From: a virus
Length of the DNA stretch: 43,690 nucleotides
Reading direction: 5' to 3' (one strand)
Virus record (IMG/VR): IMGVR_UViG_3300023094_000002
Coordinates: 1 to 43,690 of that record
Below, piece after piece: positions 10,023 to 43,690 of this stretch. Under the pieces are notes generated by a model. It was not told where the DNA came from. It saw only the letters and a list, made by a program, of their open reading frames with translations, and searched no databases. Within the stretch, counting starts at the first letter, position 1. The number at the start of each line of letters is the position of its first letter. A program made the position numbers and the translations under genes.

Positions 10023-10116
10023 TAAAAAACCGCTGCCGACAATGAAGCCGGGAGCGGTAAGTTAATATTGAATTGATCTCTCATACATTCGGGATGATGC
10101 ATCTTCACATCAGTTA
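10023..10116 (-). ncRNA. Candidate leader RNA with intrinsic terminator before portal gene (element E)
   Basis: Lies between terL and portal. A terminator hairpin (ACCGCT / AGCGGT arms 10029-10034 and 10053-10058, with a possible inner CCG/CGG pair) is followed by a T tract and ends 13 bases before the portal ATG. A good -7 box lies upstream at 10120-10127. The loop CTTCAT can pair with GTGAAG at 10103-10108 (five Watson-Crick pairs and one G-U), a weaker version of the loop-to-5'-end pairing in elements A-D. No clear middle hairpin. Confidence 0.4.
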
Positions 10117-10119
10117 GGG

Positions 10120-10150
10120 CAAATATAATGATTTTTATTAATTAAGCGAA
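10120..10150 (-). promoter_or_regulatory. Possible promoter for portal/head operon
   Basis: TATATTTG at 10127-10120 is a perfect Bacteroidota -7 box; 20 bases upstream is TTC instead of TTG. It is outside any gene. Transcripts would start near 10115 and meet the terminator at 10029-10058. Confidence 0.5.
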
Positions 10151-16228: not shown

Positions 16229-16436
16229 TTTTAACCTCGCTTTCTGTAATTTTATTAATTTCAGTACGAAGTGTTTTAGCGAATTTTATCGCGGTGGATT
16301 TGTCAAGCCTAATTTGCTTTAAGGAAAGCCCTTGATTTATGCATATTAAAATCCCTTGTGGGTTTTCAATTTTCTTGCATTGAATAGTAATGTAGTCGAA
16401 TTCGGAATCTCCGAATGTTAAATCGAATTTTGCCAT
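16218..16436 (-). CDS. Small hypothetical protein, first gene of replication operon
   Basis: 72 residues from ATG 16436 (MAKFDLTFGDSEFDYITIQC). The frame extends upstream to 16496, but that stretch is the terminator hairpin and its U tract, so the inner ATG is right. Beta-rich start, helical Lys-rich end (LDKSTAIKFAKTLRTEINKI). Overlaps the next gene by 11 bases. It is the gene directly controlled by element D. Confidence 0.7.
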   Translation of the reverse strand: MAKFDLTFGDSEFDYITIQCKKIENPQGILICINQGLSLKQIRLDKSTAIKFAKTLRTEINKITESEVKNVR

Positions 16437-16468
16437 AATTATAAAGGTTTTAAGTTCCAGTAAACTAT

Positions 16469-16570
16469 TAAAAAACAAAACCCTTAATAGCCGCATCTAC
16501 TCGGTTCTTAAGGGTTGTTCTTGGTTAATGGTGGTTAACCTAAAGTCTTAAATGAGGTAGATGATCTCGA
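16469..16570 (-). ncRNA. Promoter-proximal pseudoknot-terminator RNA (element D)
   Basis: Three parts in order of transcription: 5' segment CATCTACCTC (16563-16554); a 6-bp hairpin GGTTAA/TTAACC (16535-16540 with 16523-16528); and a terminator with a 9-bp stem AACCCTTAA/TTAAGGGTT (16508-16516 with 16479-16487), 20-base loop and TTGTTTTTT tail. The loop holds GAGTAGATG, which pairs with the 5' segment (7 bp plus 2 bp past one bulge), giving an H-type pseudoknot. It ends about 33 bases before the ATG at 16436. It may be an attenuator or a small RNA. Confidence 0.6.
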
Positions 16571-16573
16571 ATA

Positions 16574-16602
16574 CAAATATAGTAAATTATTCTAATAATC
16601 AA
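16574..16602 (-). promoter_or_regulatory. Promoter of replication operon (element D)
   Basis: TATATTTG at 16581-16574 with TTG at 16602-16600 (spacing 18) or at 16606-16604 (spacing 22). The TTG lies in the T tract of the terminator that closes the previous operon. Confidence 0.75.
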
Positions 16603-25940: not shown

Positions 25941-25968
25941 AATTTTTATTTTTAAATGTTATTGAGTA

Positions 25969-26000
25969 CAAATATAATAAATACTTTTATATTACAGCAA
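25969..26000 (-). promoter_or_regulatory. Early-region promoter
   Basis: TTG at 26000-25998, 21-base spacing, TATATTTG at 25976-25969: full match to the Bacteroidota consensus. It lies just after a terminator and gives a leader of about 25-30 bases. Confidence 0.85.
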
Positions 26001-32892: not shown

Positions 32893-32900
32893 AAAAATAG

Positions 32901-32974
32901 AGGCGAAAGTCAGAATCGAACTGACGTCAAACGGGTTGCAAGCGTTCTCCAAAACCAACATTAGAAATTTCGCC
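32901..32974 (-). tRNA. tRNA-Cys(GCA)
   Basis: 74 bases. Acceptor GGCGAAA/TTTCGCC, T arm GTCAG-TTCGATT-CTGAC, anticodon loop TTGCAAC giving GCA. Discriminator T, as expected for Cys. The last anticodon stem pair is C-C. No CCA encoded. Confidence 0.85.
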
Positions 32975-32980
32975 ATTTTG

Positions 32981-33053
32981 TACCTCGTGAAAGATTCGAA
33001 CTTTCAACCACAATATCCTAAGTATTGCCGCACTTCCGTTAGCGTAACGAGGC
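32981..33053 (-). tRNA. tRNA with anticodon TAG (Leu CUA), short variable loop
   Basis: 73 bases. Acceptor GCCTCGT/ACGAGGT, anticodon stem CAATA/TATTG with loop CTTAGGA, T arm GAAAG-TTCGAAT-CTTTC, discriminator A. The anticodon reads CUA (Leu), yet the variable region is about five bases, where bacterial tRNA-Leu has a long arm. Confidence 0.75.
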
Positions 33054-33058
33054 ATTTG

Positions 33059-33145
33059 CAGAAAGTAAGGGAATCGAACCCTTGCCGCTTTAACACGGAC
33101 TTGTTTAGCAAACAAGCATAACAAACCAACATTTAACTACTTTCT
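33059..33145 (-). tRNA. tRNA-Ser(GCT)
   Basis: 87 bases. Acceptor AGAAAGT/ACTTTCT, anticodon stem CTTGT/ACAAG with loop TTGCTAA, long variable arm, T arm AAGGG-TTCGATT-CCCTT, discriminator G. The D arm is unusually AT-rich. Confidence 0.82.
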
Positions 33146-33150
33146 ATTTG

Positions 33151-33239
33151 CGGAAGAAGTGAGGCTCGAACTCACACATCTTGGTAGATCAACGGTTTTC
33201 AAGACCGCGCCCCTTAGTCCTCGCTTGGGTTATTCTTCC
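33151..33239 (-). tRNA. tRNA-Ser(TGA)
   Basis: 89 bases. Acceptor GGAAGAA/TTCTTCC, anticodon stem GCGGT/ACCGT with loop CTTGAAA, long variable arm, T arm GTGAG-TTCGAGC-CTCAC, discriminator G. Confidence 0.88.
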
Positions 33240-33243
33240 TTTG

Positions 33244-33316
33244 TGACCGCTATGGGATTCGAACCCATACTGAACGGGGCTTAAACCCGATGCCTCTGCC
33301 GTTGGGCTAAGCGGCT
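33244..33316 (-). tRNA. tRNA with anticodon TAA (Leu UUA), short variable loop
   Basis: 73 bases. Acceptor AGCCGCT/AGCGGTC with an A-C mismatch at the first pair, anticodon loop TTTAAGC in stem CGGG/CCCG, T arm ATGGG-TTCGAAT-CCCAT, discriminator A. Reads UUA (Leu) but again lacks the long variable arm. Confidence 0.75.
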
Positions 33317-33321
33317 ATTTG

Positions 33322-33394
33322 TGGAAATGGCAAGAATCGAACTTGCGACGCTCACGGCTTCAACGTGACGCTCTACACTCTGAGCTACATTTCC
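33322..33394 (-). tRNA. tRNA-Phe(GAA)
   Basis: 73 bases. Acceptor GGAAATG/CATTTCC, anticodon stem TCACG/CGTGA with loop TTGAAGC, T arm GCAAG-TTCGATT-CTTGC, discriminator A. Confidence 0.9.
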
Positions 33395-33401
33395 CTTTTT
33401 G

Positions 33402-33482
33402 TGGGAATAGATGGAATCGAACCACCCAACATGACGTTTAGCAGATTTACAGTCTGCCGCCTAACCGATCGGCCTTATTCCC
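33402..33482 (-). tRNA. tRNA-Tyr(GTA)
   Basis: 81 bases. Acceptor GGGAATA/TATTCCC, anticodon stem GCAGA/TCTGC with loop CTGTAAA, medium-long variable arm as expected for bacterial Tyr, discriminator A. First tRNA of the cluster, beginning right after the T tract of a terminator. Confidence 0.9.
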
Positions 33483-43288: not shown

Positions 43289-43690
43289 TATGGATTGGTT
43301 TTGCCTCTGCGGCTCATGCGATCATTCATAACTATTGTTCTTTGGTTTCCGTTCCTTTGATACCTTTTAAGTACCGTGTCGGTTAATTGTAATCCCGGAA
43401 TGTTTGAAACGGCGTTTTCGATTCTGCTGGCAGTTGCGTTGAAAGCGTCGATTGGAAACTCTGAATTTACAGTAATGTTTTGACTTCCTGAAATGCCATT
43501 ATAAAGTATTTTATTCAGTCCGTTGTCGAACATCAACGCCTTACTTTTCATGTGTGGGATAATCTTATCGCCTTTTTCCAACTTTCTAAGGTTAGCTTTG
43601 CTTTCTCCGGTGCTTTTTACATTTCCGTGTTTGTCGGTATGGATTTCCGGCCCACGTTCATCAACCCAAGCATAACCACCTGGCGCGTTG
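43288..43690 (-). CDS. Tape measure protein, C-terminal part (continues from base 1)
   Basis: Same frame as 2841-1 after removing the 127-base overlap; the new part is 43563-43288 (91 residues and stop). The sequence across the junction reads GYAWVDERGPEIHTDKHGNV, then LEKGDKIIPHMKSKAL, the usual Gly-rich end of tape measure proteins. Its TAA overlaps the ATG of the 901-residue gene by one base. Confidence 0.93.
   Translation of the reverse strand, partial: NAPGGYAWVDERGPEIHTDKHGNVKSTGESKANLRKLEKGDKIIPHMKSKALMFDNGLNKILYNGISGSQNITVNSEFPIDAFNATASRIENAVSNIPGLQLTDTVLKRYQRNGNQRTIVMNDRMSRRGKTNP
43564..43690. repeat. Terminal direct repeat, right copy
   Basis: Identical to bases 1-127. See the left copy. 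Confidence 0.95.

Follow-up and report, generated by a model that had tools for sequence, protein, structure and literature searches.

Conserved loop–loop pairing in a terminator-bearing phage leader: a candidate attenuator of replication operons in viruses of Flavobacteria

The window, by which we mean the whole stretch of DNA analysed, is a 43.69-kb phage record that ends in an exact terminal direct repeat of 127 bp (1-127 and 43564-43690). A seven-tRNA array (Cys, Leu, Ser, Ser, Leu, Phe, Tyr) was also noted at 32900-33482. The present study concerns element D, which lies on the minus strand. The features at the locus are the following.

16631-16610, minus strand: terminator of the preceding operon, from the sequence
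16607-16469, minus strand: element D as a whole unit (promoter, 5′-terminal hairpin H1, internal hairpin, strong intrinsic terminator T)
16607-16604 and 16603-16600, minus strand: two candidate −33 elements, TTTG, by pattern match in the sequence
16581-16574, minus strand: −7 promoter box TATATTTG, a perfect TAHHTTTG, with predicted +1 at about 16569
16568-16554, minus strand: H1, GAG-AUCAUCUAC-CUC, from the minimum-energy fold; the 5′ kissing segment lies in its loop
16563-16557, minus strand: 5′ kissing segment CAUCUAC, from the sequence; the same word occurs in one relative, G015 (L151)
16540-16523, minus strand: internal hairpin H2, GGUUAA-CCACCA-UUAACC, predicted fold; optional, missing in many relatives
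16516-16479, minus strand: terminator hairpin T, predicted fold, with lower stem AACCCUUAA/UUAAGGGUU and upper stem CCG/CGG within 16504-16491
16501-16494, minus strand: apical loop of T, 8 nt, AGUAGAUG, closed by the CCG/CGG upper stem
16500-16494, minus strand: 3′ kissing segment GUAGAUG in the T apical loop, from the swap test and covariation in relatives
16480-16471, minus strand: U-tract of T, from the sequence
16470-16441, minus strand: second conserved leader stretch between T and the start codon, UAAUAGUUUA..GG.A.CUUAAAACC..UUAU, also given as UAAUAGUUUA..GGUAAUCUUAAAACC..UUUA
16436-16218, minus strand: first operon gene, 72 aa (MAKFDL..), phrog_33177, no assigned function; ATG at 16436
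16228-15557, minus strand: second operon gene, 223 aa, DUF7833

The promoter, the 5′ segment, the GGTTAA/TTAACC hairpin and the terminator with a 20-nt loop were all located in the sequence, as the preliminary description states, and T reads as AACCCTTAA-20 nt-TTAAGGGTT at the DNA level (16516-16479). The −7 box fits the Bacteroidetes consensus TANNTTTG and its refined form TAHHTTTG (PMC6847099; PMC9723704). The spacing between the −33 candidates and this box is 22 or 18 nt, which is close to the usual spacing and not identical to it; judged by these boxes, the promoter is of the Flavobacteria type. A consensus sigma-70 scan, which targets a promoter type that does not apply to this phylum, gave no enrichment over shuffles and was rejected.

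The minimum-energy fold of D is the structure composed of H1, H2 and T (−24 kcal/mol, z −3.3), and a free energy of −13.2 kcal/mol was obtained for the T hairpin of the G015 copy of D. H1 begins at about the predicted +1, and its stem comprises 3 bp only in D and 3-10 bp in the relatives. The 5′ segment, CATCTACCTC at the DNA level (CATCTAC(CTC)), begins at 16563 and pairs with the terminator loop just as had been described: CATCTAC and GTAGATG are perfectly complementary over 7 bp, and TC:GA follows beyond a bulged C. The segment was thus rightly regarded as one half of a pairing, an account that was incomplete, since the pairing is made by a kissing loop that joins the H1 loop to the T loop. 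The two features that the preliminary description lacks are the 5′-terminal GAG/CTC hairpin (16568-16554) and the CCG/CGG upper stem of T. Because CAUCUAC lies in the H1 loop and the CCG/CGG stem places GUAGAUG in an apical loop, the pairing in the predicted structure is a loop–loop (kissing) contact, beyond mere long-range pairing. No ATG occurs in the sequence of D from the predicted +1 to the terminator stem, and hence no open reading frame for a leader peptide was found there.

The ATG of the first operon gene lies about 33 nt past the U-tract, in agreement with the distance of 33 bases reported for the first replication gene. The claim that the preceding operon is closed by a terminator of its own also holds (16631-16610). 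In the 41 strong elements described below, the distance from U-tract to start codon is mostly 8-54 nt, and none of the 41 has a second TANNTTTG box between T and the start codon. With its terminator placed between promoter and first gene, and no other promoter, D shows the arrangement expected of a classical attenuator. The second conserved stretch (16441-16470) is common to L067, L077, L089, L151, Harreka_1, phi19:1 and morran9-1, where it precedes a homologous small gene of the MAK type; it may form a small hairpin with a conserved loop and is a candidate translational operator.

Because DUF7833 has no assigned function, the replication role of the window operon is a putative one, assigned by synteny. 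The 223-aa gene shares a blastp cluster with g1 of L091, which lies before a DnaB/Toprim primase-helicase, and homologues of the 72-aa gene followed by a replication protein or a primase/helicase were found in Olleya phage Harreka_1, Cellulophaga phage phi19:1 and Flavobacterium phage morran9-1. In elemoE_6-9C, the kissing element stands before a replication initiation gene. The genes behind the elements cluster into a small MAK-type gene with a replication protein, DNA helicase, primase, an operon with a YqaJ-type exonuclease, and methyltransferases; as far as gene content tells, kissing leaders directly precede gene starts, mostly those of replication and recombination operons. The words before the 72-aa gene family are CAUCUAC (the window and one close relative), AGUGAGAUUU, GUAGAG, GUCGUGAG, CUUCUCAC, GUACGAC, GUGAGAAG and GUGGUGG, each of which complements its own terminator loop. 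There is good support for the earlier proposal that D belongs to the leader of the replication operon and does not close the preceding one, as the same unit stands before homologous genes in other phages, cultured ones included.

Taken by itself, the 7-bp loop complement of D is unremarkable, with 0-3 per strand in window-length shuffles (first-order Markov resamples, as for all shuffles here), and the case against chance rests on comparison across phages for that reason. Relatives were gathered via the DUF7833, portal and single-stranded-DNA-binding (SSB) proteins, together with whole contigs, which skews the leader set toward phages with this SSB and portal family; the breadth seen is that within phages of Flavobacteria. 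A scanner that requires a promoter box and a large-loop terminator, with scores set by hand and blind to pairing, returned 62 non-redundant leaders. Pairing was scored as 3 per G-C and 2 per A-U. The mean score of the leader 5′ region against its own terminator loop was 16.1, the maximum among permutations with swapped loops was 12.5 (n = 62), and none of 20,000 permutations attained the observed mean. A score of at least 15 was reached by 41 of the 62 leaders as against 5.5 expected.

When H1 was included in the scan and the T-tail left optional, 54 hits (43 non-redundant) were obtained on both strands, compared with 2 in one-strand shuffles; T-rich tails nevertheless follow the hairpin directly in nearly all elements. 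Viral DNA contained 50 elements in 1.76 Mb versus 6 in 1.43 Mb of host chromosome, and at a stricter score 38 versus 1, the control being Flavobacteriaceae chromosomes of a base composition similar to the viral set. The 6 host matches are poor and unlike real elements, so that host chromosomes appear essentially devoid of the kissing leader. Phages of Flavobacterium, Olleya and Cellulophaga show the pairing, as do many viral contigs from the environment; the loop letters vary among them while complementarity is kept. Searches of cultured phages by tblastn with DUF7833 and the portal protein gave no or few matches; cultured phages with a kissing element were reached via SSB and leader-DNA searches. 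Harreka_1, elemoE, phi19:1, morran9-1 and FL-1 are among the cultured phages concerned. No convincing kissing element was found in crAss001 (first 50 kb) or B124-14.

Independent covariation was obtained from IMG/VR using a pattern built on one frequent kissing word, TATATTTG..GTGAGA..TCTCAC. The complementary pattern matched at least 120 viral stretches and a non-complementary control of equal composition matched 20. Among the matches listed, the full element was present at 63 of 80 loci. In the 57 non-redundant elements among these listed matches, the pair adjoining the seed, which lay outside the search pattern and is independent of it, was Watson-Crick in 77% versus 24% with swapped partners, and the four pair types were about equally common (GC 12, CG 12, AT 11, TA 9). 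On these comparative grounds, chance is excluded by the conservation of loop complementarity across phages. An ordinary insulating terminator with accidental loop complementarity, a reading for which the unremarkable 7-bp match in D alone could be cited, is scarcely credible: it is contradicted by the blind swap test, by covariation outside the seed, by the conserved place before the same genes and by the host-chromosome control.

Two sister elements and the leader of the portal operon were found in the window.

28777-28676, minus strand: sister element with box TATGTTTG, H1 ACUGU/ACGGU, loop CUCGACA and terminator loop UGUCGAG, from scan and sequence
31878-31778, minus strand: sister element with box TATATTCG, H1 ACUGUU/AACAGU, loop CUCGAA and terminator loop UUCGAG, from scan and sequence
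10127-10029, minus strand: leader of the portal (late) operon with promoter, hairpin UGAUG..CAUCA and terminator; kissing weak (UGAAG/CUUCA)

Orthologues of the first sister element carry UCGCUAC/GUAGCGA and ACGGCUAC/GUAGCCGU. Loop words differ even among elements within one phage; a permutation test for orthogonality of the words within a phage was flat, in a small set with double-counted promoters. The portal leaders (10029-10127 in the window, and those of L016, L018, L034, L038, L039 and L176) lack strong kissing, and 8-18 nt separate their terminator from the start codon that follows. Their 5′ hairpin loop is often GNRA-like (GUGA, GCGA), and the terminator loop is small in the related contigs. 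The portal leader of the window probably belongs to a different, non-kissing class. The portal leaders of the related contigs hint that replication genes and late genes have leaders of distinct classes.

Some further leaders and boxes deserve mention in their own right. A TATATTTG box at 25966-25973 immediately precedes a gene of 70 aa (25940-25728) that lacks a leader terminator, and it is a candidate early, unattenuated promoter. In L082, L076 and L084 (near 1800; the GGUCAG group), the terminator 5′ arm repeats part of the kissing target (CUGAC), and H1 could there pair with the terminator arm in place of the loop. The leaders of Riemerella phage CRP5 (L271:15075-15250) and of PJA1 (L272:7790-7985) carry a 14-nt 5′ segment, GTTAATCCAAGTGC and GTACAATCAAGGGC, respectively, and a long terminator loop contains a sequence perfectly complementary to it. 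The gene start repeats the segment (ATGTTAATCCAAG and ATGTACAATCAAG), and all three sites co-vary between both phages; this is possibly a translational or three-way switch.

Turning to mechanism, a classical antiterminator that excludes the terminator and a start-codon trap were both considered and rejected, for lack of conserved pairing in 49 elements. Pairing of the leader with the terminator arms showed no excess over swapped partners in this set (z −0.3 for the 5′ arm, −0.6 for the 3′ arm). No conserved pairing was found between terminator loop and start region, and spacer pairing was likewise without signal. The spacer self-hairpin gave z 7, which may be inflated by palindromes and is given no weight. 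Kissing itself gave z 24 in these 49 elements, which were selected for kissing; the unbiased tests are the 62-leader swap and the +1 pair.

We infer regulated termination, its direction and its trigger from this arrangement. The reading that we hold to be probable is that D attenuates transcription of the replication operon in cis, from within its leader; the kissing state would set termination, the kissed form would favour the off state and the trigger would recognise shape. Host RNA polymerase would start near 16569, and H1 would form at the extreme 5′ end, followed by T, a strong terminator at which, by default, transcription would stop some 33 nt short of the first gene. The H1 and T loops would then make a 7-bp kissing complex within one RNA. 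About 14 nt of RNA are held inside polymerase, so the T apical loop would be freed only on entry into the U-tract, and kissing and closure would be decided together. Neither terminator arm takes part in the kissing pairs, so kissing and closure can coexist. For the same reason, the kissed form would be the terminating (off) state, and blocking the kissing or binding the complex would lead to read-through. The sequence turns over under a constant shape, which makes a phage or host factor that reads kissing complexes by shape the most plausible trigger.

As to the direction, kissed as off is the most likely assignment and appears only moderately better than the opposite sign; a terminator that needs no help makes the latter almost equally plausible. 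With the sign reversed, H1 would capture the T loop and delay closure during the U-tract, giving read-through, and a masked or unfolded H1 would give termination. The T hairpins indeed exceed ordinary terminator-like hairpins in strength (median −17.5 versus −11.3 kcal/mol). As T is strong enough to act without kissing, kissing may oppose termination, and it seems not to compensate for weak terminators (Spearman −0.17, p 0.25, no significant correlation with T strength). Moreover, by its coordinates the 3′ kissing segment would leave polymerase just before the termination point. Nevertheless, the pairing leaves both arms of T free, and a kissing complex and the two stems fit together sterically; capture would thus not have to prevent closure. 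Arm pairing, which would be a simpler antiterminator, is not seen. As an explanation in its own right, the reversed sign is rather doubtful to us, and its confidence overlaps with that of the attenuator described above because the attenuator core is common to both.

The terminated RNA of about 95 nt could also be the product itself, a compact small RNA with a trans or decoy function, and read-through into the operon would then be a by-product. Its two ends would be locked, the 5′ end by H1, which starts close to the predicted terminus, and the 3′ end by T, and its shape is kept while its sequence changes. We regard this as unlikely, as the unit adjoins gene starts with no second promoter, often those of homologous replication genes, a location for which a free RNA has no need. 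More improbable still is a 5′ UTR structure serving mRNA stability or translation, in which the U-rich stretch would be a translation start region and not a terminator tail. Start codons do lie mostly 8-54 nt past the hairpin, and translation in F. johnsoniae is tuned by structure near the start codon (PMC6847099). Start-codon regions in Bacteroidetes are A/U-rich, so a share of the U-tract signal could have a translational role. Against this, the stems are laid out A-rich/G+C/T-rich, as in intrinsic terminators, with T-rich tails directly after them in nearly all cases, and neither loops nor arms show conserved pairing to the start region.

A wider proposal may be offered tentatively, with confidence short of even: a leader terminator switched by tertiary loop–loop contact alone, with no alternative secondary structure, would time the replication operons of Flavobacteria phages via a shape-recognising factor, with a second, non-kissing class for late genes, and would represent a previously undescribed RNA class. 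Rfam gave no match at the elements, its Flavo-1 and other leader motifs included. Its only matches elsewhere were to tRNAs, to off-target sequences at weak scores and, in a relative, to a DUF805b RNA; the DUF805b match, a cis-regulatory motif, lies just before a ParB-like gene in Flavobacterium phage morran9-1 (L274:4380-4414). Models built on conserved sequence and nested pairs would miss kissing leaders because the loop sequences are not conserved. No description of kissing, pseudoknot or terminator leaders like D in phages was found in the open-licence part of PubMed Central. Little has apparently been published on gene timing in Bacteroidetes phages, and nothing was found in the same collection. 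The leaders point to an undescribed on/off control in viruses of Flavobacteria and, being widespread and strongly covarying, provide a definite control point that can be tested in cultured phages. They also lend themselves to the question of whether loop–loop contact suffices, with no competing helix, to switch an intrinsic terminator, and they supply RNA engineering with a natural collection of independent kissing pairs.

Compared with known systems, the kissing leader is plausibly a variant of the attenuator and makes a plausible case for a new class, because it would work like an attenuator yet has no antiterminator, no match to an aptamer model and no leader peptide. With classical attenuators and terminator/antiterminator riboswitches, the D-type leaders share the promoter-proximal position and the intrinsic terminator before the first gene; they differ from classical attenuators in having no conserved alternative pairing of the arms, the only long-range conserved pairing found being loop to loop. 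The guanidine-II riboswitch regulates via a loop–loop contact between hairpins. In the cobalamin riboswitch, the L5-L13 kissing loop brings an upstream hairpin into contact with the expression-platform hairpin and regulates (PMC10907184). The loop–loop contact is common to these two and the D-type leaders, but the latter have no conserved aptamer nucleotides and no Rfam match, their partner loop belongs to a terminator and their kissing words vary. Kissing over about 7 bp is also known from the antisense systems of ColE1 (RNA I/II) and the pT181 repC attenuator, and in pT181 it controls a leader terminator; the D-type leaders are alike in kissing length, whereas both of their loops reside in one RNA. 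Finally, at the lambdoid put and nut sites, early phage transcripts begin with structured RNA that decides read-through. The D-type leaders resemble them in opening early phage transcripts with structured RNA and in the read-through decision that is predicted for them, but they have no conserved sequence box, contain their own terminator and show loop–loop covariation.
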